Assembly: GCF_016745095.1 (NCBI RefSeq)
Contig: NZ_CP067087.1
Location: forward strand, 2,220,501 to 2,284,500
Length of the DNA: 64,000 nt
Source: Croceicoccus sp. YJ47
Lineage (GTDB): Bacteria > Pseudomonadota > Alphaproteobacteria > Sphingomonadales > Sphingomonadaceae
Reading direction: 5' to 3'
The notes under the pieces are model-generated. The model saw nothing but the letters and a program-made list of their open reading frames with translations. It ran no database searches and was not told the origin of the DNA. The translations under genes and the position numbers were made by a program. Position 1 is the stretch's first letter. Each line of letters starts with the position of its first letter. Shown in pieces: positions 16,393-33,897 of this stretch.

Positions 16393-17673
16393 ATGGTGCA
16401 GGCGCAGAACATCCGCCCCCGCATTTTCGATGCGGATGACCCGGCGCTGACCGCCGGGTCCGATCGTCTTGGCGTGTTGATCGTGGACGACGACGACGCC
16501 GTGGCACGCTTCCTCGGCGATGCGCTGGCGCGCATGGGTTGCGAAATATCGCTGGCCCATGATTTCGACCAGGCGATCCGTCAGATGCATGTCGGCATCG
16601 ACATGGTCGTGACCGACCTGCGCATGCCGGGCCGCGACGGCATGGACCTCGTGCGGGCGCTGCGCGGGTCGCACGACCGGGCCCTGCTCCATGTCGTGAT
16701 GATCACCGCGTGCAAGGACGAGGAAACGATCGGCCTCGCGACCGAGGCCGGGGTGGACGATTTCCTGTTCAAGCCGGTCGATCCGGTCAAGCTGATGCTC
16801 GTCCTGTCGCGCACCCGGCGGTCGGTGCGACTGCATCGCATGCTGCAACGGCGCAACACGATGCTGACGCGGACGCATGAGCGGATGCGCACGCTTTTGT
16901 GCGAGCTGCGCGACGATCTCGATGCGGCGGCGGGAATGCACCGGCGCCTGCTCCCGCGGGAAGAACAACTGCCCGGATTGCGCATGACGCATGTCTATCG
17001 CCCGGCCACGATGCTGGGCGGCGACACGATTGGCGCGGTCACGGTGGGGGCGGGGCGCACGCTGTTCTTCCTCCTCGATGTGCAGGGCCATGGCGTGCGC
17101 GCCAGCCTCGCCAGCTTTCACTATCATCGCCGCCTGCAGCAGATGGCGCCTGCCGATGCGGATGCGCTGTCGCTGGCGATGCAGCGGCTGAACCGTGAAA
17201 TCCTGGCGGAGAAAGACGAGATCTACGCGACCGCCATTGCCGGCATCGTCGATGTTCCCGCCGGGGAGGGGTGGATCATCCGCGCCGGGCATCCCGAACC
17301 CCTGGTCATGCAGGCGGGCGGCGGCGCGGCTGGCGAAACCCGTCGGCTCGATACCGCGGGCGCCTTTCCGCTCGGCTGGTTCTCACAGTCCGAGTTCCGG
17401 GCGACGCGCTTTCCTTTTGCGGAGGGCACACGGCTCGTCATCTATTCCGACGGGCTGCTCGATTGCTGCGAAGCGGCCGGAATGCCGGACGCGCAATCGC
17501 TCTCCGCGTGGATCGGCACCTGCCGCGACCGGCCCATCGCCGCCATCGGCGCCCTGGTGGAGCGGCTGCTCGCGCACAGGGACGGCGACCTGCCGCTTGC
17601 CGACGATGTCTCACTGCTTGCTATCGAGCCGGATTGCGCATCCGGTGCCCTTCACGAGAGGACCGATCCTTGA
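16393..17673 (+). CDS. Response-regulator receiver fused to PP2C/SpoIIE phosphatase
   Basis: 426 residues. Residues 25-145 are a receiver with acidic pocket VDDDDA (32-35), phosphoacceptor Asp75 in TDLRMPGRDG and the conserved lysine in FLFKPVD. A helical linker (about 150-200, ending MHRRLLP) leads to a SpoIIE-like PP2C domain with metal aspartates in MLGGDTIG, LLDVQGHGVRAS and LADDVSLLAI. It should dephosphorylate the STAS antagonist encoded next, in response to a histidine kinase not present here. Its stop overlaps the STAS start. This is the input module of a partner-switching pathway such as those governing general stress or biofilm responses. Confidence 0.87.
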   Translation: MVQAQNIRPRIFDADDPALTAGSDRLGVLIVDDDDAVARFLGDALARMGCEISLAHDFDQAIRQMHVGIDMVVTDLRMPGRDGMDLVRALRGSHDRALLHVVMITACKDEETIGLATEAGVDDFLFKPVDPVKLMLVLSRTRRSVRLHRMLQRRNTMLTRTHERMRTLLCELRDDLDAAAGMHRRLLPREEQLPGLRMTHVYRPATMLGGDTIGAVTVGAGRTLFFLLDVQGHGVRASLASFHYHRRLQQMAPADADALSLAMQRLNREILAEKDEIYATAIAGIVDVPAGEGWIIRAGHPEPLVMQAGGGAAGETRRLDTAGAFPLGWFSQSEFRATRFPFAEGTRLVIYSDGLLDCCEAAGMPDAQSLSAWIGTCRDRPIAAIGALVERLLAHRDGDLPLADDVSLLAIEPDCASGALHERTDP

Positions 17674-17987
17674 CCGACACGGCCATCATACATGTCGCGC
17701 ATACCCGGCTGGATGCCGCAGCGGCGCCCGATTTCCGCGCAATGCTGGACGCGAAAGTGGGGCCGGAATGTACCCGCGTCCTTCTCGACCTGTCGGTGGT
17801 GGAGTTCATGGATTCCACAGGGCTCGGCGTGCTCGTATGGCTGGTGAAACATGTGGGGGACCGGGGCGCTATCGCCATTGCCGGAACCCGTCCGGCGGTC
17901 GCCACGCTGTTCCGGCTCACAGGATTCGATACCTTGCTGCCAATCTGCGGGAGCGAGGAGGAGGCACGCGATGCCCTCTCGCTCTGA
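17670..17987 (+). CDS. STAS-domain anti-anti-sigma factor (RsbV/SpoIIAA-like)
   Basis: 105 residues from TTG 17670, preceded by GAGAGGA at a good distance and overlapping the phosphatase stop. The single STAS domain contains LDLSVVEFMDSTGLGVLVW; the serine of DSTGLG is the usual phosphorylation site of the family. Dephosphorylated by the PP2C protein, it would bind the HATPase protein encoded next and release that protein's target. No sigma factor gene is adjacent, so the final target is not known. Confidence 0.85.
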   Translation: MTDTAIIHVAHTRLDAAAAPDFRAMLDAKVGPECTRVLLDLSVVEFMDSTGLGVLVWLVKHVGDRGAIAIAGTRPAVATLFRLTGFDTLLPICGSEEEARDALSL

Positions 17988-18405
17988 TCCGTTCATCCGC
18001 GTGCCCGCCAATCTGGAGGCGGTGCGCGACCTCGCCGCATGGGCGCAGGGCGCGTGCAGCGATGCAGGCGTTGCCGACGATATTGCGCTCGAACTCGAAC
18101 TCGCGCTTGTCGAGGCGGCGACCAATATCGTCGTTCATGCCATGCCGGGCGATGGCAACGCGGATGCGGTCGGCGAAATCACCTGCACCGCGCATTTTAC
18201 CGCCGATGCGGTGCGCTTCACGTTGAACGACGACGGCGCCCCCGCACCGGCGGGCACGTTCACGACCGCGACGACGCCCGCCGACCCGCTGGCCGAAACC
18301 GGGCGCGGCATGGCGATCCTGCAATTGTGCATCGACGAACTCGAATATTCCCGCGCGAACGGGCGCAACCGGCTGGAGTTGCGCCGGCGCCTGCCCGCGC
18401 GATAA
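17971..18405 (+). CDS. HATPase anti-sigma/serine kinase (RsbW-like)
   Basis: 144 residues from ATG 17971 with GGAGGAGG just upstream, overlapping the STAS gene by 17 bp. The GHKL kinase motifs are visible: N box LALVEAATNIVVHA, then the DDGAPAPAG loop and the GRGMAILQL lid region. Such proteins phosphorylate the STAS antagonist and sequester a sigma factor or other partner. The last 56 bp of the gene lie in copy 1 of a tandem duplication, so an orphan copy of its tail exists downstream. Confidence 0.85.
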   Translation: MPSRSDPFIRVPANLEAVRDLAAWAQGACSDAGVADDIALELELALVEAATNIVVHAMPGDGNADAVGEITCTAHFTADAVRFTLNDDGAPAPAGTFTTATTPADPLAETGRGMAILQLCIDELEYSRANGRNRLELRRRLPAR

Positions 18406-18691
18406 TGCGAGATTCGATAGCCTAGGATCAAAACCGGATATTGGCGCCCGCCGTGATACGCGCGCCATAATCGGCGCTTGCCGCGGGTACGCGTATATCC
18501 GCGCGGCGAATATCCGTGTACCCGCGCGAACGGGCGCAACCGGCTGGAGTTGCGCCGGCGCCTGCCCGCGCGATAATGCGAGATTCGATAGTCCGGCATC
18601 AAAACCGGATATTGGCCCCCGCCGTGATACGCGCGCCATAATCGGCGCTGGCCGCGGGGACGCGTATATCTTCGCTACGAATATCCGTGTC
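18350..18691. repeat. 171-bp tandem duplication across two convergent gene ends
   Basis: The segment starting CCCGCGCGAACGGGCGCAAC at 18350 is repeated at 18521. Each copy carries the tail of the RsbW-like gene (ending LPAR-stop) and, on the other strand, the last residues of the porin (ITAGANIRF-stop). The copies differ at about ten positions, mostly in CCTAGG versus TCCGGC after the rsbW tail and in the DIRRAD/DIRSED stretch of the porin end. Confidence 0.9.
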
Positions 18692-20100: not shown

Positions 20101-21144
20101 TCAGGCCGCCTTGGCCTTCTCCTTCGTCTTCGCGAGGATCCAGTTGCCCACCTCGGCAGCCGTGACCGATTCGGCCGCGACGCCGAGTTCGTCGAGCGCG
20201 GGCTTCCGGCTCTCGCCGCCGGTTTCCACGCAATCCTGCACGAACACGTCGGCGCCGCTCTTCGACAGCGCCTGAAGCCCGCGGGCGCCATCCTTGCTCG
20301 TTCCCGAAAGCAGGCCCGCCAGAACCGGTGTCCCCGCCCGTGCGAAGCTTGCGAAAAGCATGTCGGCAGAGGGCCGCGCCCCGCCGATCGGTTCTTTCTC
20401 GACCAGCTTCAGCAGCGGGGCGAAATCGTTTTCGAACACGACATGCTTGTGCTTTGCATAGACGAGATAGACCGTTCCGGGCACCATCATGGTTTCATCG
20501 CCCGCCGTTTCGATCTTGCACGCGACGCTTGGCCGGAGGGGGTCGATCATGCGGTCGATAAAGGATTCGTCCGCATCGATGAGGACCACGGTTTCCGGAC
20601 AATTGGCAGGGTAGCCGGCGATCGTTTCGCGAATGACCTCGATACTTTCCGTGGCGCCGGCAAGAACGACAATGCGCCCGTCCGGTAGGTAATCAGCCAG
20701 GGCGACGGAGGCCCCGCCCTGCGGTGCTCCGCGATTTTTAAGGTCGGTATTGGCCGCTTCGTTCACGATCGCGCCGAGCTTGGCGACGGTTGCATTGAAC
20801 TGTTCCGGGGTGGTGTGAAGCGGTTTGGGAAAACAGCCCACCGCGCCGAGCTCCAGCGCCTTTTGCGCGGTGCCCGTGCCATCCTGCGTCACGCTGGACA
20901 GCATGATGACCGGAATAGGGTCGGTTTCCATCAGCTCGGCCAGAAATTCCATCCCGCTCATGCCGGGCATTTCGACATCGAGGGTGAGAACATTGGGCTT
21001 CAGGGTCGGGATGAGCTTGCGCGCTTCCTCCGCGCTGCGCGCATCGCCGACGACTTCGACGCCCTTGGCCTGTTCGAGGATGTCGCGAAACAATGCGCGC
21101 ATCGCGGTGGAATCATCGACGATCAAAACGCGGGCCGTACTCAT
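20101..21144 (-). CDS. CheB-like protein with intact receiver and inactivated methylesterase domain
   Basis: 347 residues from ATG 21144, preceded by AAGGA. The N-terminal receiver is complete: VDDS, TLDVEMPG with the phosphoacceptor Asp, LSSVTQ and CFPKPL with the conserved lysine. The C-terminal domain aligns with CheB methylesterases but has lost the catalytic serine (the GSSTGG position reads AGATES) and histidine (the VQH position reads LID). The acid region GLLSGTSKDGARGL keeps its Asp. It should still be phosphorylated by CheA but not demethylate receptors, so a phosphate sink or adaptor is likely. It is divergent from the chemoreceptor gene across about 290 bp. Confidence 0.85.
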   Translation of the reverse strand: MSTARVLIVDDSTAMRALFRDILEQAKGVEVVGDARSAEEARKLIPTLKPNVLTLDVEMPGMSGMEFLAELMETDPIPVIMLSSVTQDGTGTAQKALELGAVGCFPKPLHTTPEQFNATVAKLGAIVNEAANTDLKNRGAPQGGASVALADYLPDGRIVVLAGATESIEVIRETIAGYPANCPETVVLIDADESFIDRMIDPLRPSVACKIETAGDETMMVPGTVYLVYAKHKHVVFENDFAPLLKLVEKEPIGGARPSADMLFASFARAGTPVLAGLLSGTSKDGARGLQALSKSGADVFVQDCVETGGESRKPALDELGVAAESVTAAEVGNWILAKTKEKAKAA

Positions 21145-21437
21145 GGCGCTAATCCTTTGCATGGTCTGGACGGAAAAACCGTTCTGAACGGCTGTCCTTT
21201 CGCCATCCTATGGCGTGCGCACTCACAAACCTCGCCTTACCGCACCCTAGGGAATGGACCTTAACCGGACATAGCGAGTCCGTCAGCACCACGGCGCATA
21301 AGAAGGGGCAGGGAGACAGAAGCGGTCGCGTCGAGCCTATGGATTTATCCGTAGGACATACGACACGCGATCGGTCCACTTTCGGATGTAGTTGGCCGTA
21401 AATGGTGAGGGATTCGCCGTCGCTACAATCGATATTT

Positions 21438-22904
21438 ATGAAAGTTACTGACATGCTTGACTGGTTTGAGAAATCAGCTCCCATTCGCAAGAAATTCGAT
21501 ACGCTGATCACAATATTCGCGACTCTTTCGATTCTCGAAATTATCGTCGTCTTTCTGGGACGGATGGACGTGATCGGGGCCAGCCTCGAAGAGGGCGTGA
21601 TCGTATCGAGCGCGCTTCTCACCATGACGACCATTTATCTGGCGAAACGGCGCGTGTGCGATCCCTATGTCGATACGGTGGAGCGTATGGAAGGGCTCGC
21701 GGCGGGTGATACCCAGTCGCGCATCGGCTACGAAGACTATACCGATTGCGTCGGACGCATGAACAAGGCGATGACCACGTTCCGCGACAACGCGGAAGAG
21801 GTCCGCCGGGCGCAGAAAAGCTCCGAGCAGGTCGTTCAGGATTTTTCCACGGCTCTCAACCGCCTCGCCGACGGCGATCTTACCGTGCGCATCGAGCAGA
21901 CGGGGCACAGCGAATATGCCGCCCTGCACGACGCGTTCAACCGCTCCGTCTCCGGCCTGTCCGACATGATTCAGCAGGTGCATGCCTCGGCCAGCGGGGT
22001 GAATACCGGCGCCAATGAAATCCGCGCCGCGTCCGACGATCTCGCGATCCGCAACGAACAGCAGGCCGCGAGCCTGGAGGAAACCGCCGCCGCGATGAGC
22101 CAGGTGACCGATCTGGTCAAGAAAGCCGCCGAAAACGCCGCCGATGCGCAGACCGCCATGTCGCAAACGCATCAGCAGGCCACCAATGGCGGCGAAGTGG
22201 TCGAGAAGGCCGTGTCCGCGATGGCCGCGATCGAAAAATCGGCCAATGAAATCACGCAGATCATCGACGTCATCGACGGCATCGCGTTTCAGACCAATCT
22301 GCTCGCGCTCAACGCAGGGGTCGAAGCGGCCCGGGCGGGCGACGCGGGCAAGGGCTTTGCCGTGGTCGCCAACGAGGTCCGCGCACTTGCGCAGCGCAGC
22401 GCCGATGCCGCGCGCGACATCAAGGAGCTGATCAACGCCAGTTCCAAGCAGGTCGGCGCCGGCGTGCAGCTGGTCGGCGAAACCGGCGGACTGCTCTCGC
22501 AGATCGTCACCGGGGTCGACGACGTCCACACGCAGGTCAACAATATCGCCCAGATGGCCGCATCGCAGGCCTCGCGCCTCGAACAGGTCAATGGCTCGGT
22601 GGCCGACATGGATCGCATGACCCAGCAGAACGCCGCCATGGTTGAGCAATCGACCGCAGCAGCCCGCAGCCTTGCCGAAGAGGCGAACGAGCTGGGCGAG
22701 CTGGTCAAGCAATTCCGTACCGGCGCCACCAGGCCGGGTGCGACGCGCGCAAAGACCGCTGCGAAGCGGGTGCCGGCCGCCGCCAACGCCGCGCCCGCGA
22801 TCAAGCGGGTCGTCAGCGCCGCACCGGCACGCGCCGTCCCCCGTGTCGAGGGCAACCTGGCCGTTGCGGAATCCTATGACGATCAGGACTGGAGCGAGTT
22901 CTAA
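21438..22904 (+). CDS. Methyl-accepting chemotaxis protein with DWSEF tail
   Basis: 488 residues from ATG 21438; ATG 21402 and 21453 are alternatives and none has a clear ribosome site. The N-terminus holds two hydrophobic helices (LITIFATLSILEIIVVFLG and SSALLTMTTIYLA) with almost no periplasmic loop, so it probably senses from the membrane or cytosol. HAMP-like helices follow, then the signalling hairpin IDGIAFQTNLLALNAGVEAARAG. The C-terminus ends DDQDWSEF, matching the xWxxF pentapeptide that tethers CheR and CheB in other receptors. It starts the chemotaxis operon read on the plus strand. Confidence 0.9.
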   Translation: MKVTDMLDWFEKSAPIRKKFDTLITIFATLSILEIIVVFLGRMDVIGASLEEGVIVSSALLTMTTIYLAKRRVCDPYVDTVERMEGLAAGDTQSRIGYEDYTDCVGRMNKAMTTFRDNAEEVRRAQKSSEQVVQDFSTALNRLADGDLTVRIEQTGHSEYAALHDAFNRSVSGLSDMIQQVHASASGVNTGANEIRAASDDLAIRNEQQAASLEETAAAMSQVTDLVKKAAENAADAQTAMSQTHQQATNGGEVVEKAVSAMAAIEKSANEITQIIDVIDGIAFQTNLLALNAGVEAARAGDAGKGFAVVANEVRALAQRSADAARDIKELINASSKQVGAGVQLVGETGGLLSQIVTGVDDVHTQVNNIAQMAASQASRLEQVNGSVADMDRMTQQNAAMVEQSTAAARSLAEEANELGELVKQFRTGATRPGATRAKTAAKRVPAAANAAPAIKRVVSAAPARAVPRVEGNLAVAESYDDQDWSEF

Positions 22905-22925
22905 CTCGCGAGGAAGGAAAAGCAG

Positions 22926-23189
22926 ATGTCAGTGATTGAATTGCCAGCCCTGTGCGACCGGGATGCGGCCATCGCGATATGTCCCGAACTGCGCGAAGCG
23001 GCGGGGGAGCGCGCTGTTCGCGTGGACGCATCCGCGGTCGAGCGCATCGGCATCGCAATGCTCCAGTTGCTGGTGTCTGCCGCGCATACGGCAGGGGGGG
23101 TCGCCATCGTCGACCCGTCCGACCAGTTTGAAGAGGCGCTGCGCATTGCGGGCCTCGCATCGAAATTCAATCGCGGGGAAACAGCGTGA
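22926..23189 (+). CDS. STAS-domain protein in the chemotaxis operon
   Basis: 87 residues, preceded by AGGAAGGA. It is a single STAS fold with DASAVERIGIAMLQLLVSAA where antagonist proteins have DSSGLxxL; the phosphorylatable serine is not present. Similar small STAS proteins sit between receptor and cheA genes in other alphaproteobacteria, but their role is unclear. It overlaps the cheA start by four bases, so the two are coupled. It probably binds another signalling protein rather than serving as a kinase substrate. Confidence 0.78.
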   Translation: MSVIELPALCDRDAAIAICPELREAAGERAVRVDASAVERIGIAMLQLLVSAAHTAGGVAIVDPSDQFEEALRIAGLASKFNRGETA

Positions 23190-25299
23190 ACAGCGAAGAC
23201 ATTCAGAACATCTTCTTCGTCGAGTGCGAGGAATCGCTCGAAGCGGTAGAAGCTGGGCTGGAGGCGTGCCGGGACGGGACGCACGATGGCGAAACCATCA
23301 ATGCGATCTTTCGCGCGGTCCATTCGATCAAGGGTGGCGCGGGTGCGTTCGGATATGGCCCGCTGCAGGCGTTCACCCATGTCTTCGAAACCCTGCTCGC
23401 CGACGTTCGTGAGGGCACGGTTGCGGTAACCGACGATCTGACGGGGCTCCTGCTGCTGTCGCTCGATTGCGTGCGCGATCACGTCGAGACTGCGCGCTTT
23501 GGCGGAACTGCGCCGGACGATGCGGCCTTGATGGCGCAGTTGAACGAGGCGCATGAAAAGGCCGGTGCCGGCGAGGCGACCGGCGAAAACGCCGCCGCTC
23601 CCGCCGAGGCGCCGGCGTCCCCCCGGCGCCCGTGGACGACGATCTGGATGCGATGCTCGACGATCTGCTCGGCCCGGCAGCGCCCGCCACGCCGAAGGAG
23701 CCCTGGCTGTTCCACATGCGCGCGCACGGCGGCGCGATGACGAATGGCAGCGAACCGCTCTACTGGCTGCGCGAATTGCAGGAAATGGGCGGCGAATGCG
23801 TGGTTTGCGACAGCGCGAACGTCCCGCCGCTCGACGATTTCGACGTGCAGCATGGTTATCTGGGCTGGAGCTTCGCGATGCCCGCTTCGGTCAGCCGGGA
23901 GCAGGTGAGCGAAATCTTCGACTTCGTCGGCGACGATTGCGCGATCGCGTTCGGGGCGGAGGAAGGCATTCCCCCGATGCACCCCGACGCGGTGGAGCAG
24001 GCAGCGACGGCAAGCGTCGAAACCGCGGCCGGTCCGGTGCCGGCGCAAGGCGACGATGCCGGAAACGAAGCAAAGGACGCGCGCCCCGATGCCGCACAGG
24101 CCGCCTCCCGTTCGCCCAAACCGCAATCGATCCGCGTCGATCTCGCGAAGCTGGACAAGATGAACGACGGGGTCGGCGAACTGGTCATCGCGCAGGCCAT
24201 GCTGGCGCAGCGGCTCGCCGATGAAAACCTGATGCACATCGAGGAACTGGCCGTGCTCGACGCGCTCGTCCGCGATGTGCAGGAACATGCGATGGCGTTC
24301 CGCGCACAGCCGATCAGCGCGGTCTTCAGCCGCGTGCCCCGCCTGCTGCGCGAACTCGCGTCGAGCACGGGAAAACATGTCAACCTGGAGGTGACGGGCG
24401 AAACGACCGAGCTCGACAAGACGGTCGTCGACCGGTTGAGCGAGCCGCTTACCCATCTCATCCGCAATGCCGTCGACCACGGTATCGAATCCACCGAACG
24501 GCGCAAGGCCGCGGGCAAGGATCCCGAAGGCACGCTGACCCTCTCGGCCGAACAGAAATCGGGCCGGGTCGTCATCCGCATCGCCGACGACGGCGCCGGG
24601 ATCGACCGCGAACGCGTCTTTGCAAAGGCGGTCGCCAATGGCCTGATCTCGCCCGATGCGGATCTGCCCGACGAGGAAATCGACCACCTGATCTTCGCGC
24701 CCGGCTTCTCCACGGCGGAGCAGGTATCGAATATTTCCGGTCGCGGCGTGGGCATGGATGTGGTGCGCCAGAACGTGAAGGAACTGGGCGGGCGCATCAC
24801 CATCGAATCGCGCCCCGGCAAGGGCACCGCCTTCGTGCTTGCCCTGCCGCTGACGCTGGCGATTTCGGACGGCATGGTGGTGCAGGTCGGCGGGCAGTCG
24901 CTGGTCCTGCCGCTCGCGCATGTGGTCGAAAGCCTGCGCCCGCTCGCCTCCGACCTCAAGGGCATGGGCACGAGCCGGCAGCTCATCAACATTCGCGGCA
25001 GCTTCGTGCCGATCGTCCGGCTCGATCATCTGGCGGGCGAGGAACTCGCCATCGACGATCCTTGCAAGGGCGTACTCGTCATCGTCGATACGGAGCGGTG
25101 CGGACAGGCGGCGCTGCTCGTCGATTCCATCACCGATCAGCGTCAGTTCGTGATCAAGAATCTCGACACCCATTTCCGCGCCGTCGAAAGCGTGGCGGGT
25201 GCGACGATCCTAGGCAATGGACGGGTCGCGCTGATCATCGATGTCGACAATCTGGTGCAGAGCGAAAACGCCCATCCCACCCTCCAGGCGGCTGCGTGA
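23186..25299 (+). CDS. cheA: Chemotaxis histidine kinase CheA, reading frame shifted in the P1-P2 linker
   Basis: The frame from ATG 23186 encodes P1 with the phosphoacceptor His46 in FRAVHSIKGGAGAFGY and reaches the Pro/Ala linker, then would stop at 23740. The remainder is in the -1 frame: VDDDLDAMLDDLLG, a P2-like domain, P3 (SIRVDLAKLDKMNDGVGEL), P4 (N box HLIRNAVDHGIES, DDGAGID, GRGVGMDVV) and P5 up to 25299. The switch falls at a run of six C at 23619-23624; a seventh C would restore one frame of about 705 codons. Either a sequence error, a true mutation or slippage. It would phosphorylate CheY, CheB and the CheB-like protein. Confidence 0.9.
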
Positions 25300-25301
25300 C
25301 G

Positions 25302-26178
25302 ATGGGCGTTTCCGCCGCCGTGGCCGACACGCGCTCGCTCGTGCCCGGGGTCAGCCCGCAAATCTACTCGTCCGCCGATTTCGAGGCGATCGCCCGGCTG
25401 CTGCGCGACGAGGCGGGGATCGTCCTGTCCGACAACAAGAAGATGCTGGCCTATTCGCGGATCGCGCCGCTGCTTCGCGAAACGCATTGCGAAACGTTCG
25501 ACACCTATCTGCGCAAGGTCGGCGAGGATGCCGCCTTGCGCACGCGCACGGTCGCCGCCCTCACGACGAACCACACCTATTTCAATCGCGAATCCCATCA
25601 TTACGAGCATTTTGCCAAGGTCGTGCGCCCGCACCTCCTTCAGCTGGCGGAGGCGCGGCAACCCGTACGCCTGTGGTCGGCGGCCTGTTCGAGCGGCGAG
25701 GAAATCTGGACGCTGATGATGGTTCTTCTGGGGGAGGACAAGGCGGCGGGCCGGCACATCGCGGATCGCGATATCGTGGCGCTCGCCACCGATCTCGCCG
25801 ACCATGCGCTCAAAGCGGCGGCAGAGGCGCGCTACGAAAGCAAGGCGATGGAGGCCGTTCCCGAAGCCCTTCGCCGGAACTGGTGCACGAACGGGGGCAA
25901 GGAGACGCAGGTTGACGCCGCGTTACGGAACATGGTCCGGTTTCGCCGGCTCCAACCTGTTGCGAGCCTGGCCATTCAAGACGCTGTTCGACGTGATATT
26001 CTGTCGCAACGTCATGATCTATTTCGATCAGCCGACGAAGGAGCAGCTCGTTCTGCGCCTCGCGCAGCAACTCCAACCGGGGGCCTATCTCTATATCGGT
26101 CATTCGGAACGCGTGTCGGGAGAGGCAGCCGACATGCTCGAACTGGTGGGGCCGACCGTCTACCGGCGCCGTGACTGA
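25302..26178 (+). CDS. cheR: Chemotaxis methyltransferase CheR, frameshifted
   Basis: The frame from ATG 25302 covers the N-terminal helical domain (FEAIARLLRDEAGIVLSDNK) and the SAM-binding core (LTTNHTYFNRESHHYEHF, LWSAACSSGEEIWTL) up to NMVRFRRL. The true continuation NLLRAWPFKTLFDVIFCRN, then VMIYFDQPTKEQL and YIGHSERVSG, is in the +1 frame and ends at 26178. One extra C at 25952-25953 explains the shift. CheR methylates receptor glutamates using SAM. Its stop overlaps the cheB start (TGATG). If the insertion is real, the protein loses its C-terminal half and receptor methylation should fail. Confidence 0.9.
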
Positions 26179-27209
26179 TGACGATTCGCATCCTCATTGT
26201 CGAGAATTCCAGCGTCGTGCAACGGCGGCTGGCCGCGCGCCTGTCGCCGCATGACGACCTCGAAATCGTGGATTACGCCCGCGATGCGCAGGAGGGGCGC
26301 GCCATGATCAAGGCGCTCGACCCCGATGTCGTCGTTATGGATACGAAGCTGCCCGGTCTCGATGGGCTGTCCTTTCTCGAAAAGATCATGACGCTGCGCC
26401 CCACGCCGGTTGTAATGATCGCCGACATGGCCACGCCGGGCGACCCGGTCGCGGCCCGCGCCAGACAGCTGGGTGCGGTGGGGTGTTGCGCGCGCGACAT
26501 GGCGCCGCTCGGACCGTTCGGCGGGCGCGATGATCCGCTCGTGTCACTGGTGCGTCAGGCGGCGCGAACCGGGCGGGCTGGTCTGGCGGCATCGGCGCGG
26601 GCCGTGCCGGTCCGCACGCGGCCGCCCGGCTTGCCCGAATTGATCGCGATTGGATCGTCGACCGGCGGGGTGGAGGCGTTGCGGGAGCTGCTGGTCGATT
26701 TTCCGCGCATGTGCCCGCCGACCGTCATCGTGCAGCATGTCAAGGCGCGCTTTGCCGGCGACATCGTCGATGCGCTCGATGCGCTCGCGCCGCCGCGGGT
26801 CGTGCTCGCGCAGACCGATACCGTGCTGAAGCCGGGGCATGTCTATCTCGCGCCGGGCAATGACCGGCACCTGCGCATTTCCTCGACACAGCGCGGTATC
26901 ATCAGCCTGCTGCGCCCCGGTCCGCCCGTTTCGGGCCACCGGCCGAGCGTTGACGTGATGTTCGCATCCGTCGCGCAGAACATGGGCGCGCGGGCGATCG
27001 GCGTACTCCTGACCGGCATGGGGCAGGATGGGGCAAAAGGCCTGTACCAGATGGCGCAGGCCGGCGCCTGGACCGTGGCGCAGGACGAGGAAAGCTGCGT
27101 CGTGTTCGGCATGCCGAAGGCGGCGATCGAGATGGGTGGGGCGTGCGCGGTAAGGCCGCTGCCCCGGATCGCCGAGCATATTTTTACAAGCGAAGGAGCT
27201 TGCCTGTGA
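26178..27209 (+). CDS. cheB: CheB methylesterase with degenerate receiver domain
   Basis: 343 residues. The methylesterase domain (about 155-343) has all catalytic parts: IGSSTGGVEAL with the serine, VIVQHVKARF with the histidine and VLLTGMGQDGAKGL with the aspartate. The receiver half (1-120) is damaged: the acidic pair reads VENSS rather than VDDS, the Thr/Ser position is Ala (MIADMA) and the conserved Lys-Pro is Arg-Asp (CCARDM), although the phosphoacceptor of VVMDTKLPG is kept. It removes methyl groups from, or deamidates, receptors; phosphorylation control is doubtful. It overlaps cheR and cheD. Confidence 0.9.
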   Translation: MTIRILIVENSSVVQRRLAARLSPHDDLEIVDYARDAQEGRAMIKALDPDVVVMDTKLPGLDGLSFLEKIMTLRPTPVVMIADMATPGDPVAARARQLGAVGCCARDMAPLGPFGGRDDPLVSLVRQAARTGRAGLAASARAVPVRTRPPGLPELIAIGSSTGGVEALRELLVDFPRMCPPTVIVQHVKARFAGDIVDALDALAPPRVVLAQTDTVLKPGHVYLAPGNDRHLRISSTQRGIISLLRPGPPVSGHRPSVDVMFASVAQNMGARAIGVLLTGMGQDGAKGLYQMAQAGAWTVAQDEESCVVFGMPKAAIEMGGACAVRPLPRIAEHIFTSEGACL

Positions 27210-27760
27210 AACACGCCGCTATTCCGGAGGTCGCCGAACGGGTGCGCGTCACCATCCTGCAGGGCGAGGCCAAGGCCAGTGACGATCCGAATGTGGAATT
27301 CAGCACGGTTCTGGGAAGCTGCGTGGCGACATGCATGTTCGATCCCGTCGCGCGAATCGGCGGCATGAATCACTTCCTCCTCGCCGAACCGCCATCCTAT
27401 GCCGACCGGACGACCTTCGACGATCATTATGGGCTCTTCCTCATGGAATTGCTCGTGAACGAAATGTTCAGCCTCGGCGCGGTCAAGGCGCGGATGAAGG
27501 CGCGGCTGTATGGCGGTGCCAATCTGCGCGAGGGGATGGCCGCGATCGGGTCGGTCAACGCCGCCTTTGCGCGCAAATTCCTCAGGGACGAGGGAATCGA
27601 GATGGTTCACGAGGACATGGAAGGGCGCAACGCGCGCCGCGTCCATTTCCTTCCCGCCAGCGGACAGGTGCGTTGCCGCACCACGGTAAACACCGCGGCA
27701 CCTACGCAACAACCACTAGCGCCCCGGAAAGCCGGCAGTGGCGATGTGACATTATTTTGA
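27206..27760 (+). CDS. cheD: Chemoreceptor glutamine deamidase CheD
   Basis: 184 residues from GTG 27206 with AAGGAG eight bases upstream, overlapping the cheB stop. The catalytic cysteine is in TVLGSCVATCMFD and the histidine in IGGMNHFLLAEP, the two CheD signatures; KARLYGGANLREGM and VHEDMEGRNARRVHFLPASG are also typical. It deamidates receptor glutamines to glutamates, giving methylatable sites. The C-terminal 20-odd residues after the core are Pro/Thr-rich and variable. It is encoded just before cheY. Confidence 0.93.
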   Translation: MKHAAIPEVAERVRVTILQGEAKASDDPNVEFSTVLGSCVATCMFDPVARIGGMNHFLLAEPPSYADRTTFDDHYGLFLMELLVNEMFSLGAVKARMKARLYGGANLREGMAAIGSVNAAFARKFLRDEGIEMVHEDMEGRNARRVHFLPASGQVRCRTTVNTAAPTQQPLAPRKAGSGDVTLF

Positions 27761-27780: not shown

Positions 27781-28158
27781 ATGAAGCAAGCGACACGAAT
27801 ACTGACCGTGGATGACAGTCCGAGCATGCGAGCCCTGCTTCGCAATGCCCTGACCACCAATGGTTTCGAGGTGGAACAGGCCGAAGACGGACAGGAGGCG
27901 CTCGACTGGCTTGCTTCCAATGAGGTCGATGTGGTGCTGACCGATATCAACATGCCGCGCCTCGACGGGTTCGGGCTGATCGAACGGCTGCGCAGCAGTG
28001 CGCGCCATTCGAACCGGCCCATCCTGGTGCTGAGCACGGAAAGCTCGGACGAGAAGAAGCGCCGGGCCCGCGATGCCGGGGCGACCGGCTGGATCGTGAA
28101 ACCTTTCGATGCGGAAAAACTGACCAATGCGGTCCGGCGCGTGACCCATTCGGCCTGA
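27781..28158 (+). CDS. cheY: Chemotaxis response regulator CheY
   Basis: 125 residues, a stand-alone receiver with acidic pair Asp11-Asp12 (TVDDSPSMR), phosphoacceptor Asp55 (LTDINMPRLDG), LVLSTESSDE with the switch Ser/Thr, and the conserved lysine in GWIVKPFDAEKL. It should carry phosphate from CheA to the flagellar motor or another effector. It follows cheD by 20 bp and precedes cheW by 14 bp. No flagellar genes lie in the window. Confidence 0.93.
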   Translation: MKQATRILTVDDSPSMRALLRNALTTNGFEVEQAEDGQEALDWLASNEVDVVLTDINMPRLDGFGLIERLRSSARHSNRPILVLSTESSDEKKRRARDAGATGWIVKPFDAEKLTNAVRRVTHSA

Positions 28159-28172
28159 ACGAGGACCAGACA

Positions 28173-28613
28173 ATGCCTTATGAACTCATAACTTTTCAGG
28201 TGTCCGGACAGCTGTTCGGGATCGACATCATGGCGGTGCGCGAAATCCGGGCCTGGTCGCCCGTGACCCGCCTCCCGCATGTGCCGAAATACGTGGCCGG
28301 GGTGGTCAACCTGCGCGGTGCGGTGCTGCCCGTGCTCGACCTTTCGGTGCGGCTCGGCTGGGATGCGATGGAGGCGACGCCCCGCAATCCGATCATCGTG
28401 GCCGAACACGAAGGGCAGTCGCGCGGTCTCATCGTGCATGGGGTGAACGATATCGTCTCGATCGACGAGGATACCATACAACAGCCCGACGCCGCCGCGC
28501 AGGACGGCATCTCCCACTTCCTCAAGGGGGTCGCCCCGATGGAGGAGGACATGGTCATGGTGCTCGACCTGCAGAAGCTGATGATGGACGAAGAAATGGA
28601 CATCGCGGCATGA
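28173..28613 (+). CDS. cheW: Chemotaxis coupling protein CheW
   Basis: 146 residues, a single CheW domain. It starts YELITFQVSGQLFGIDIMAV, with the typical REIRAW, PHVPKYVAGVVNLRGAVLPV and SRGLIVHGVNDIVSID segments. It docks CheA to receptors. The C-terminus ends with an acidic tail (MDEEMDIAA). It lies at the 3' part of the operon, which places it after cheY, not next to cheA. Confidence 0.93.
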   Translation: MPYELITFQVSGQLFGIDIMAVREIRAWSPVTRLPHVPKYVAGVVNLRGAVLPVLDLSVRLGWDAMEATPRNPIIVAEHEGQSRGLIVHGVNDIVSIDEDTIQQPDAAAQDGISHFLKGVAPMEEDMVMVLDLQKLMMDEEMDIAA

Positions 28614-28636: not shown

Positions 28637-28906
28637 TTGGTGACAGGCGTGGTCGAGGCATTGAACGTGATATCGCGCGACATAGAGGCGCTCGGCGCGT
28701 TGCTATGCGCCGATGCGGACATTGCCGCCCGCCATGCCCACAGCCTGCAGGACGTGGACCGCATCGCGCAGGTCGCACGGCAGCTCGCCACCGTGCTCGA
28801 TGCCGAACATCCCTCCGATGCGGTGGAACTCATCGGCATCGACGCGCTGCGCCATCAATTGCAGGAAGCGGCGGAGATGGAGCCGGTTCGCGTCGCCTGC
28901 CAGTAA
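28637..28906 (+). CDS. Small helical protein at the end of the che operon, possible phosphatase
   Basis: 89 residues if TTG 28637 is the start; GTG 28640 is the next codon and equally likely. The protein is all helix and acidic, with no membrane segment. The middle reads SLQDVDRIAQVARQL, in which D-R-I-A-Q has the D-x-x-x-Q spacing of the catalytic Asp and Gln of CheZ phosphatases. No CheZ, CheC or CheX is otherwise in the cluster. A CheZ-like CheY phosphatase role is therefore a reasonable but unproven guess. The terminator at 28929 ends the operon. Confidence 0.6.
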   Translation: MVTGVVEALNVISRDIEALGALLCADADIAARHAHSLQDVDRIAQVARQLATVLDAEHPSDAVELIGIDALRHQLQEAAEMEPVRVACQ

Positions 28907-28989: not shown

Positions 28990-31900
28990 TTAACGCGAGA
29001 GCAGGTTCCGCGCCTGACTCGCGATCTGCGCCAGCATGGCGGGCGTCACCGGCGTGCTGGCCTGCGCACGGCCGACCATCGCGCGGAACTGCCGGATCGC
29101 GCTTTCATGCTCGTCCGCCCATTGTTGCACGGCGTCGGCCGGCGCGCGCTGCGCTGCTTCGCCGCGGGCGAGGGCGCGCAGGAAATCGAGGCGCATCTGT
29201 TGAAAATCGCGGGCGAGCCCCGCCACCAGCAGCCTTTCCCAAGGGTCGGACGGGTTCATGATCGCCGCGGTCCCCTGGGCCCAGTCCAGCCGCAGCCGTG
29301 CGCCCAGATCGGTGAACGAATGCGTCACCCGGCGCGGATCCATGCCCACCGCGGCGGCGAGATCGGCAATGCCGACCGCCCCGTCGAGGTCGAAGACATG
29401 CGATACGATCCGCGCATATTCGTCGGGAGCGCCCGCCGCGGCGAAACTCTCGCGCAGTTTCACCGAATGATCGCGTGCCTCGCTGCCCAGCAATTCTTCG
29501 GTATCGCTCGAGATCGCGGCGACGGGTTCGCGCAGCCGGGCGTAGAGTTGCGACGGTTCGATCCGGCCCCCGCCAATGCGAAGCAGATCGGCCATGTGGC
29601 TGCGGATGCCCAGCGCGAGCCGGTCATGCATCAAGAGCCGCGCATCTTCCGACATGTCCGCATGTTCGAGCCGGTCCCATACCGGCGAAAGGTCGAACAG
29701 CCATTCGGCCATGACGAAGGCCGCCACGACCTGCGACAATTCGGCGCCTTCCTCCTCCGCAAGCTCGAACGGGTGCACGAGACCGAGCCGGTTGACGACG
29801 CGATTGGCGAGTTTCGTCGCGATGATTTCGCGGCGCAGCCGGTGCCCTTCGATGAATTCGCGGTATTCTTCCCGCATCGGCGCGGGAAACGCGGATAGCA
29901 GCATGTCGACCAGCGCAGGATCGTCGGGCAGGGCGCTGTTCTCCGCCGCGTCCTGCAACACCAGCTTGGAACTGGACAGCAGCACGGCGAGCTCCGGACG
30001 GGTCAGGCCCATTCCCTCGCTCGCCCGGCGGGCCAGCGTTTCCGATTCGGCAAGTCCCTCGGTCCTGCGGTCGAGATCGCCGCTATCTTCGAGCATCTCG
30101 ATCAGCCGCATGTGCGAGGCCGCGCTCTGCGCGCCGCCGCGCGACGCAACGGAGAGGGCGAGCGCCTGCAGGCGGTTGTCCTCCAGCACGAGCTGGGCGA
30201 CCTCGTCGGTCATGTCTTCCAGCAGCCGGTTGCGCTCCTCCTCCGACAAGGCCCCGGCGCGGCGGGCGGCGGCCAGCGCGATCTTGATATTCACCTCGTT
30301 GTCGGAACAGTCGACGCCCGCCGAATTGTCGATGAAATCGGTATTGATCCGCCCACCGTTCAACGCGAATTCGATGCGCCCGGCCTGCGTGATGCCGAGG
30401 TTCGCGCCTTCGCCGATGACTTTCACGCGCAGGTTTTCGCCATCCACGCGCAGGGCATCGTTGACCGTGTCGCCGACCTGGACGTTGTTTTCCTTCGACG
30501 ATTTGACATAGGTGCCGATGCCCCCGAACCAGAGCAGATCGGCCGGTGCGCGCAAAATCGCGGAAATCAGGGCTTCGGGTTCGATCTCCTCGGCCTCGAT
30601 GCCGAGCGCGGCGCGCGCTTCGGGGGACAGGGGCACGCGCTTCATCGTGCGGGCGAACACGCCGCCGCCCTCCGAAATCAGCGCCTTGTCATAATCGTCC
30701 CAGCTCGAATGGCGGAGCGCGAAAAGGCGATTGCGCTCGTCCCAGCTTTGCGCCGGATCGGGATCGGGGTCGATGAAGATGTGGCGGTGGTCGAACGCGG
30801 CGACCAGCTTGATCGCTTTGGACAGGAGCATGCCATTGCCGAACACGTCGCCCGACATGTCGCCGCAGCCGACCACGCGGACCGTATCGCTCTGCACGTC
30901 GATACCCATCTCGCGGAAATGCCGCTGCACCGAAATCCATGCGCCGCGCGCGGTGATCCCCATCGCCTTGTGGTCGTAACCGTTGGACCCACCGCTCGCG
31001 AAGGCATCGTCGAGCCAGAAATCCCGGCTCTCCGCGATGCCATTGGCCACGTCGGAGAAGCGCGCCGTCCCCTTGTCCGCGGCGACCACGAAATAGGGAT
31101 CCTCGCCGTCGTGGATGACGACGTCCTGCGGATGCACCACCGTGTCATCGACGATATTGTCGGTGATCGACAGCAGCGTGCGGATGAACACCTCGTAACT
31201 GGCCTGCCCCTCGGCGGCCCAGGCGGCGCGGTCGCGCGCGGGATCGGGCAATTGCTTGGGATAGAAACCGCCCTTCGCACCCGTCGGCACGATCACGGCG
31301 TTCTTCACCCGCTGTGCCTTCATCAGGCCGAGCACCTCGGTCCGGAAATCGTCGCGCCGGTCGGACCAGCGCAACCCGCCGCGCGCGATCGGCCCGGCGC
31401 GCAGGTGAATGCCCTCCACCCGGCGGGAATAGACGAAGATTTCGCGCCATGGCACCGGCTTGGGAAGGCCGGGCACCAGGCTGGAATCGAGCTTGAACGC
31501 CAGCGCCTCCTTCGCCGCCGGGGCGAACGCATTGGTGCGCAGGATCGCCTCGATCACCGAAAGATAGCGGCGCAGCAGCCGGTCGTCATTGATCGCCATC
31601 ACGTTGACCAGCGCGACCCGGATGGTTTCGCGTGCCTCGTCGGCGGCAGCATCGCGGTCGCCGGCAAAGGCGGGGATCGTGGCGCGCGCGGAAAAGGTCG
31701 ATCAGCGCGCGGGCAATGTCGGGCGAATGGCCGAGCGCGTCGACCACGGTATAGATGGTGAAGCTCGCGCCCGCCTGCCGCAAATAGCGATAGAAGGCGC
31801 GCATCCACTCGGCCTCTTCGGCCTGCAGCGCGGCGGACACGACCAGCCCGTTGAACACGTCGTTTTCCGCCGCGTGGTTCAGCACCGCGGTGATCGCGCC

Positions 31901-33760
31901 CTCGATCATGTCGGCGCGGTTCAGCAGCGGTGCGGCATCGTCGCCCGATGGCAGGGCGAGCGTGAAATCGTGGATCGTGCCGAGTCGCCCTTCCTCCAGC
32001 ATGGTCGGCACCTCGCCCAGCACGCGGAAGCCGAAATTCTCCAGCGCCGGCACCGCGTCGGACAGCGGCAGATTGCCTTCATGCTGATAGATTTTGAGGC
32101 GCAGCCGTTCGGGCGCATCGGTATCGAGCCGGTACAGCCGCGCATCGCGCGTCGCGGTGCCGCCCGAAATCACTTCCAGCTCGCCCGCGGCGAGCCGGCG
32201 GATGCGGCGAATGTCGAGCGCGGCCTCCGCTGCGCCATATTCGGCGCGGTAGCCATTGGGAAACGCATCGGCAAAGCGCGCGGCAATCGCGGCGGCGCGG
32301 CCCGGCTCCTCGTCCTTGGCAAGCTCGGCCTCCACCGCGTCGGGCCAGCCACGCAGCATCGCCTGCAGCTTGTCGTCGAGCGCGGTTTCATCGGGCACCG
32401 TCTGCGCATCGCGAATGTCGAGGACGAAGCGCATCATCGCGAGCACGCCGCCTTCGACCTGCAGGCTCCAGTCGAGGATTTCGGCCCCCGTCGCCTCGCT
32501 CAAAAGGGTCTGGATCCGCTGGCGCGCGCTTGTCGAGATCATGTCGCGCGGCAACCACACGAACGCGAACAGATGGCGCGCAAGTGGCGCCTCCACCAAG
32601 GTCAGTTTCGGACGCGGCCGGTCGGTCAGGCTCGTCATCGTGGTCGCGACGCGTTCAATGTCGCTGTCCGAAAATCCGATGACCAGATCGTGCGGCAATT
32701 TCGTCAGTGCATTGAGCAGCGATTTTCCCGTGTGGCCGCCGGGGTCGAAGCCCAGCTTGTCCATGAGCTTGGCAAGTTGCCGGCGCATGCGGGGGACGCG
32801 GTCGGGCGGGGTGTTCATCGCCGCGCTGGTCCAGATGCCGGCATGGATCGACAAGGCCACGACGGTGCCATCCTCCATCACCGGCACGATGAAGAGGTCG
32901 AGCGGAACCCGCCGATGGACGAGCGAAATACGGTTCGCCTTCACCACCAGCGGCGCCCGCCCGCGCCCGCCGTGCGTTTCCCGATCGAACCAGTCGAACG
33001 CCGCGTCATAGGACGCATCGGCGAGGATCTTCCTCGTGCTGCGGCGGCAGATGCCCATCGTCTGCGCCTCGGTCCCGTCGCGGCGGCGGGTGATATGGCC
33101 AAGATGCGTCATCATCCCGTCGTTCAGCCAGCGCAGCAGGGCGGCGCCTTCCTCGTCCGCGATGCTGTCCGCATCCTCGGACAGCAAGGCGCGCATCTCG
33201 GCCCAGTCGTTCACGGCGGCGCGCACGTCGCCCACGGTGACCGCGACGGCCTGCTCGAGTGCGCGGCGCTGCTTTGCATCCACGCGCGAGGTTTCGATGT
33301 AGATCATCGATTCGCTCGCGGTATCGGGCGCCGCATCCTCCGCAGGGCCGGCGCCGACCTCGTGCAACATGCCGTCGCCGTCGCGCCGCACCGGCACGAC
33401 CGGATGGATGAGCCGGTCGATGACAAGCCCCTGCTCCGCAATGGCCAGCGCCAGCGAATCGACGAGGAACGGCATGTCGTCATTGATGATCGCAATGCGG
33501 ATGAAACGGCGCCCCTCGCTCGCCGAGGCCAGCCCGATTGCCGGACCGTCCTTGCGGCACGCCGCCGTCTCCAGCAGGAATTGGGCCACGTCGGACAATT
33601 CGTCATCGGACAGCGGCGTATCGCCAGAGAGCAGCGATTGCCGGATATGGGTCGTGATCGCCGCGATCATGCCGGGGTCCGCCGACGCGTGCGTCCCGTC
33701 CGCGCGGTTGTCCACGCCATGGTCGGTGCCGACGGTTTCATCCTGATCATTCGAACCCAT
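28990..33760 (-). CDS. gdhB: Large NAD-specific glutamate dehydrogenase, frameshifted
   Basis: The gene encodes about 1,590 residues, the length of the NAD-GDH class, starting at ATG 33760 with GGAGA upstream. The N-terminal frame (to about 31689) holds the ACT-like regulatory half, e.g. IRIAIINDDMPFLVDSLALA and KLTLVEAPLARHLFAFVWLP. The rest is in the other frame: AINDDRLLRRYLSVIEAILR, then the catalytic VEGIHLRAGPIARGGLRWSD and VPTGAKGGFYPKQL with the lysine. The break lies in an alternating CG run (FRAR then ATIPAFAG), where one base is missing. It oxidises glutamate to 2-oxoglutarate with NAD. A stand-alone C-terminal frame with its own start is not expected to be active. Confidence 0.93.
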
Positions 33761-33897
33761 TATCGTCTCCGTTCCGGCCTTCCAAAGGCCCGTTATTTTA
33801 TTACACGGGTGCGCAGCGATCGTTCCCGCATTTGCCCGGTCCATAGCAATCTGGCCACGCGGCGAAAGGACCAATCGGGCGCGGCGCAGGCCCGGAC

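Follow-up and report, generated by a model that had tools for sequence, protein, structure and literature searches.

A conserved pseudo-esterase, a CheB paralogue with a fully kept receiver and a broken methylesterase site, appears from sequence comparison to be the rule in one sphingomonad family, and its pairing with a second CheB of the opposite defect appears to be a late state of the Croceicoccus line. Both proteins, here called CheB1 and CheB2, are encoded at a chemotaxis (che) operon in a 64,000-nucleotide stretch of Croceicoccus sp. YJ47 (contig NZ_CP067087.1; hereafter the window), whose genome, G000, is a single contig of 3.35 Mb. In the usual view of CheB, the receiver is there only to serve the esterase of the enzyme. 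The original prediction for this DNA had proposed that one of the two proteins takes the phosphate and the other demethylates. This fits the residues that each protein has kept, but as a general rule it does not hold, and the split is possible in Croceicoccus only (three genomes). A strict division of CheB over two chains is not a general rule; the surprise is the conserved pseudo-CheB.

CheB1 keeps its receiver and has lost its esterase site

The cheB1 gene (20101..21162, minus strand) encodes a protein of 353 amino acids. Receiver and triad positions were numbered after Salmonella CheB (1a2o). In an alignment to this reference the receiver of CheB1 is complete (D16, D17, D62, S89 and K113), Ser164 is replaced by A170 (20653-20655, minus strand) and His190 by D196 (20575-20577, minus strand), and the catalytic Asp286 is kept as D291 (20290-20292, minus strand). 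The full receiver and the two esterase substitutions that had been predicted for this protein are thus borne out. The reference segment SCVVFGMP is also gone from CheB1.

CheB1 and CheB2 alike pass the Pfam cut-offs for an N-terminal receiver and a C-terminal CheB domain. Scored with the NCBIfam model for CheB (NF001965, cut-off 293), CheB1 reaches 194 bits and falls below the cut-off; CheB2 passes with 311 bits. CheB1 has the two-domain CheB architecture and lacks the Ser-His-Asp triad, and on these features it is regarded as a CheB paralogue and not classed as a methylesterase. The Pfam label for CheB1 is still CheB methylesterase, and such genes are therefore easily counted as enzymes. An Rfam scan around cheB1 gave no match.

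An AlphaFold2 model of CheB1, built from 14 sequences, has a mean pLDDT of 79.7 and a pTM of 0.56. Its best solved matches are the CheBs of Pectobacterium (6ymz) and Salmonella (1a2o), with a whole-chain TM of about 0.5, and against single CheB domains the TMt is 0.78-0.85. The whole-chain value is only about 0.5 because the arrangement of the domains differs or is unsure.

To monitor selection, the ratio of nonsynonymous to synonymous change (dN/dS) was determined pairwise among three Croceicoccus genomes: the window genome, G408 and G398 (C. hydrothermalis; an assembly of 90 contigs, 99% complete). CheB1 gave 0-0.04 for the receiver and 0.05-0.10 for the pseudo-esterase; the corresponding values for CheB2 were 0.17-0.25 for the receiver and 0.09-0.12 for the esterase. 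With low dN/dS in both proteins, neither gene looks neutral.

The CheB1 clade in sphingomonads

An order-level search with CheB1 as query covered 396 genomes, 90 of which match at E <= 1e-30. Residues were read in 67 stretches, each up to 19.9 kb, which include every match of at least 190 bits. The CheBs in these stretches were sorted by their best match to the window pair into clade A (CheB1-like; 51 proteins from 50 genomes) and clade B (58 proteins). In a CheB tree made by a quick method after removal of the triad and receiver-site columns, one branch with a support of 100 separates the 51 clade A rows from the 57 counted clade B rows; the second-cluster stretch of the window genome (L096) and the reference were placed in no group.

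D10, D11, D56, S83 and K107 are present in each of the 51 clade A proteins, whose response regulator receivers are thus complete. None retains a full triad: Ser164 and/or His190 is missing from each (21 lack both, 26 only the His and 4 only the Ser). Asp286 and Gly287 are retained in 51 of 51. The fewest changes on the tree of both clades are four at Ser and two at His, so that different catalytic residues were lost in different subclades. In clade B the triad is retained in all 58 proteins. The receiver is the conserved half of the clade A proteins, with a mean identity of 66% versus 45% for the esterase half; in clade B the two halves are similar (59% for the receiver and 56% for the esterase).

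The 50 genomes with CheB1 all belong to one family. In a class-wide search of 385 drawn genomes (E <= 1e-38), no CheB1 was seen outside this family: 31 outside genomes match, the best at 183 bits, and in the 18 outside-family loci that were read from these genomes Ser, His and Asp are kept in 18 of 18. A type-1 CheW, defined by a score of 120 bits or more with cut-offs picked once the scores were known, occurs in 48 of the 396 genomes, each of which is one of the 50 CheB1 genomes.

CheB2 keeps its triad and has a degenerate receiver in Croceicoccus

The cheB2 gene (26178..27209, plus strand) encodes a CheB of 343 amino acids. Its triad is kept as S161, H187 and D284 (26658-26660, 26736-26738 and 27027-27029, plus strand). 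In the receiver, D10 and D11 of the reference are replaced by E9 and N10 (26202-26207), S83 by A82 (26421-26423) and K107 by R106 (26493-26495), all on the plus strand, and the set of receiver residues is incomplete, although the Pfam receiver cut-off is still passed. These changes had been predicted along with the kept triad, and both were found; the prediction had not mentioned the acceptor, D55 (26340-26342, plus strand), which is kept as well. The same E N, A and R are found in CheB2 of G408 and G398. An AlphaFold2 model of CheB2 from 8 sequences has a mean pLDDT of 82.9 and a pTM of 0.60.

This state is peculiar to Croceicoccus. Counting Glu in place of Asp10 as intact, which applies to six clade B proteins, the receiver is intact in 57 of 58 clade B proteins, the exception being CheB2 of the window. 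The CheB2 receiver is also intact in G019 (L036), the closest of the other genomes that have the operon, and the damage therefore arose in the Croceicoccus line. The receiver of the window CheB2 trails its esterase by a mean of 12.5 identity points (56 pairs), whereas in the 1540 other clade B pairs the receiver leads by 3.7 points (sd 5.1). Chance or sequencing error was considered for the changes in both CheBs and rejected: every one of the 51 clade A proteins has a broken triad, and the receiver changes recur in two further Croceicoccus assemblies.

It had also been suggested to survey whether the two losses always occur together. They do not, as the receiver of CheB2 is intact at 41 of 42 loci where it is paired with CheB1, again with the window as the exception, and an obligatory pairing of the losses was rejected on these grounds.

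A separate question is whether the partly disabled CheB2 receiver of Croceicoccus is still phosphorylated on D55, so that CheB2 remains phospho-activated. The retained D55 and the mild change from K to R speak for this, as does the first-position E, which is shared by the six clade B proteins whose receivers are otherwise intact. On the other hand, N, A and R are unique to the window among clade B proteins, and D11, S83 and K107 are kept in 57 of 58. We consider a working switch in this protein improbable.

A second che cluster of the window genome (L096) adds a third CheB, of canonical type. In the stretch L097 (G000 1970000-1989900) a CheB domain lies in a frame of 1483 amino acids that also holds a CheR domain, the one such hybrid in the genome; a frame of 363 amino acids in L097 also contains a CheB domain, with a poor alignment around the His, which may have been lost. 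In G398 only one further CheB match, a CheB-CheR hybrid, reaches E <= 1e-20.

Gene content of the che operon

The operon on the plus strand has the order MCP, STAS, cheA, cheR, cheB2, cheD, cheY, cheW and a gene for a small protein with a DxxxQ motif, with cheB1 divergent upstream. The gene for the methyl-accepting chemotaxis protein (MCP; 21402..22904), divergent from cheB1, encodes a C-terminal DWSEF. It is followed by a gene for a small, CheS-like protein (22926..23189) with a single STAS domain (STAS_2, E 1.6e-10), encoded beside and before cheA. The cheA gene (23186..25299) encodes Hpt, dimerisation, HATPase and CheW domains, with a broken frame near 23610-23640; cheR (25302..26178, counted from the first ATG that follows cheA) has a broken frame near 25935-25975. 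These breaks leave both CheB genes untouched. Downstream of cheB2 are cheD (27200..27760, start approximate), the sole cheY found in the operon (27781..28158), cheW (28173..28613) and the DxxxQ gene (28637..28906).

The product of the DxxxQ gene, a small che-operon protein, has no match in Pfam or NCBIfam. Its motif is of the phosphatase type, and the window protein and 51 further profile matches all carry [LIF]QxxDxxxQ (52 of 52), a count that is not independent of the window protein, from which the profile was built. By its sequence this small helical protein is CheT-like and possibly a CheZ-type phosphatase. Both names, CheS-like and CheT-like, are given on the basis of domain, motif and position. 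CheZ was found in none of the 67 genomes searched, 52 of which have CheB1, and CheX in three, one of them with CheB1; CheC was not part of this search.

The available text of PMC7698151 gives the pentapeptide motif of MCPs as xZxxZ, which the DWSEF of the window fits. In the stretches examined, an xWxxF tail ends 37 of the 40 MCPs that score over 300 bits, the operon MCP included.

Forty-two loci hold CheB1, cheA and cheB2 together. A single CheY is present at 41 of these, the stretch L038 ending before cheY; the STAS gene occurs at 42 of 42, and the DxxxQ gene at 39, with L038, L041 and L042 ending at cheD, cheW and cheY, respectively. The position of cheB1 varies: it lies divergently upstream (at times many kb away from cheA), follows cheW or stands apart from the operon. 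At 18 of 51 clade A loci the DxxxQ gene is located at most 1.2 kb downstream of cheB1. Another operon type of the same family (L086-L090) has two CheYs, STAS, the DxxxQ gene and no CheB1 in five of five cases.

In G201 and G241 cheB1 is missing from the CheB1-type operons (L099 and L098) along with the DxxxQ gene; the two are found together at another locus. This compact locus, apart from the main operon (L074 6094-11093 in G201; L077 in G241), encodes MCP, CheA, CheB1 and the DxxxQ protein; Pfam found no Hpt domain in the L074 CheA protein. G305 and G251 have CheB1 without this che operon, and their CheA is only distant (253 and 238 bits). G256 has CheB1, CheW, the DxxxQ gene and two MCP matches, with no CheB2 and no CheA match. 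The stretches L100-L102 are pieces of genomes whose CheB1 sits on another contig.

Possible roles of CheB1

In sequence comparison, CheB1 unites complete receiver residues, a broken triad, recognisable CheB domains and low dN/dS with co-inheritance with one operon type. We see an even chance that it is a conserved, non-catalytic CheB paralogue serving as a phosphoryl acceptor that drains CheA in an F7-like operon. In the available text of PMC8429497, F7 rhizobia are without CheZ, and CheY1 acts as a phosphate sink for CheY2; according to the available part of PMC12654446, the rhizobial proteins CheS (STAS) and CheT (DxxxQ, predicted CheZ-like fold) steer the flow of phosphoryl groups. The CheB1 operon holds STAS and DxxxQ genes with a single CheY, which on gene content makes CheB1 the obvious extra acceptor for CheA. 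CheA would phosphorylate the CheB1 receiver, and CheB1 would draw phosphoryl groups off CheA, so that the signals of phosphorylated CheY and of CheB2 would end earlier. CheB1 would fill the slot of the rhizobial sink CheY1, with the CheS-like and CheT-like proteins as putative helpers, while its pseudo-esterase domain, having lost demethylation, may act as a binding module. CheB2 would be the demethylating enzyme. In Croceicoccus only, CheB2 has parted with most of its phospho-switch and is probably under little or no control by phosphorylation, which would leave CheB1 and CheY as the proteins of the operon that respond to CheA. More tentatively, and with considerable doubt, a CheB that lost its enzyme may have become a dedicated acceptor for CheA, a sink CheB that acts with the CheS-like and CheT-like proteins and replaced one of two CheYs in a sphingomonad F7-like system, after which CheB2 of Croceicoccus would have given up its phospho-switch, placing phosphorylation and demethylation on separate chains.

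Several observations weigh against a role as phosphate sink. Ser and Asp are kept in 26 of 51 CheB1 proteins, and a His-less CheB1 may therefore have weak activity. The stretches L091-L095 from other families and the second cluster of the window genome (L096) have one CheY and STAS with no CheT-like match and no CheB1, and a second acceptor beside such an operon is thus not always present. Of the two CheYs at the two-CheY loci, the lone CheY is closer to the cheA-proximal one (127-149 bits) than to the one encoded between cheB and cheD (56-64 bits), which complicates a simple swap for CheY1; CheYs were counted per locus, not genome-wide. Additionally, the CheT-like protein alone could end the signal, CheB1 is kept without this operon in G305 and G251, and its co-inheritance with the operon is partly plain linkage and common descent.

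As an alternative, CheB1 might be a phosphorylation-gated competitor whose pseudo-esterase docks on receptors, at the methylation region or at a DWSEF-type tail, so as to block CheB2 or CheR or to position them. The CheB domains recognised in the CheB1 model, the invariant Asp286 and Gly287 of clade A and the frequent xWxxF tails of the MCPs are consistent with docking. However, the pseudo-esterase is the less conserved half of CheB1, which weighs against a tightly kept receptor surface, and G256 has CheB1 and two MCP matches with no CheA match. We regard this role as unlikely.

Still less probable is a CheB whose role is spread over two chains, in which phosphorylated CheB1 binds CheB2 and switches its esterase on, CheB1 being the sensor and CheB2 the enzyme. 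In its favour, the two proteins have kept complementary halves in three Croceicoccus genomes, each with low dN/dS, and the CheB2 receiver of the window lags its esterase in the way described above. However, at all but one of the 42 loci the CheB2 paired with CheB1 has an intact receiver, and G305 and G251 have CheB1 but not this operon, so the origin of CheB1 does not lie in making good a damaged CheB2. The further canonical CheB of the window genome also speaks against the two-chain arrangement.

That CheB1 is a spare paralogue in ordinary relaxed decay and heading for loss, as the different catalytic residues lost by subclade might suggest, is very improbable given low dN/dS in both of its domains, intact receiver residues in every clade A protein and its presence in all genomes with type-1 CheW.

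CheB1 is thus under selection and family-wide, its receiver being the better conserved half and its enzyme site being lost, and the output of CheA may reach a CheB-shaped protein that is unable to demethylate. If the sink reading is true, this would be another way for bacteria without CheZ to end the CheY signal. CheB2 of Croceicoccus is a natural CheB with a damaged switch and is useful for asking what the phosphorylation of CheB is for. Among titles and abstract openings of the open-access literature, a scope that leaves out most subscription papers, no CheB was apparent that combines a receiver with a disabled esterase, and its absence from print is accordingly only possible.

State of the window strain and neighbouring sequence

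The frames of cheA and cheR that are broken in the window are single open frames in G408 and G398. A gene at 28990-33874, which we take to encode an NAD-specific glutamate dehydrogenase, is split into two overlapping frames and is likewise open across the same point in these two genomes. The cheA of the second cluster (L096 13645-15876; G000 near 114-116 kb) contains one in-frame stop, and its G408 counterpart is one open frame. Flagellin was matched in 7 of 12 genomes searched, including G408 and G398, which are the closest relatives of the window genome that carry this locus, and was not found in G000, G305, G256, G396 and G403; FliM, an uninformative marker here, was matched in 2 of the 7 flagellin-bearing genomes. 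The window strain may be defective in chemotaxis. The breaks in cheA, cheR and the dehydrogenase gene could be assembly errors, and the stop in the second cheA together with the flagellin that was not found looks like decay. In either case, decay or assembly fault, the functional claims should be based on its relatives, where both CheBs share the same features.

Upstream of the che genes, a frame at 16393-18405 encodes a response regulator with a SpoIIE phosphatase domain. The frames after it resemble, by eye, genes for STAS proteins and anti-sigma kinases and may form a partner-switch module. At 18350-18690, a unit of 171 bases is present in two tandem copies that match at 93%; from the alignment, G408 seems to have one.

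Comparison with known systems

As far as the available parts of the rhizobial sources go, the CheB1 operon is like the CheY1/CheS/CheT systems of S. meliloti and A. fabrum in combining STAS and DxxxQ proteins with a receiver protein beyond one CheY. Unlike the sink CheY1, CheB1 belongs to the CheB family and carries a pseudo-esterase domain, and a sink role is here read purely from gene content. The operon resembles the rhizobial F7 system, and the label F7-like is given by this resemblance alone.

Like CheB methylesterases (PF01339 and PF00072; 1a2o and 6ymz), CheB1 and CheB2 have the same two domains in the same order. Unlike the usual CheB, CheB1 is without the Ser and His of the triad, and at four of the five receiver sites CheB2 has a residue other than the usual one. 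The CheBs of Campylobacter and Helicobacter, which are without a receiver domain, provide a precedent for a methylesterase that has no phospho-switch of its own. CheB2 of Croceicoccus is probably also without a working switch, but differs from these proteins in that it keeps the receiver domain, the acceptor Asp and a low dN/dS.

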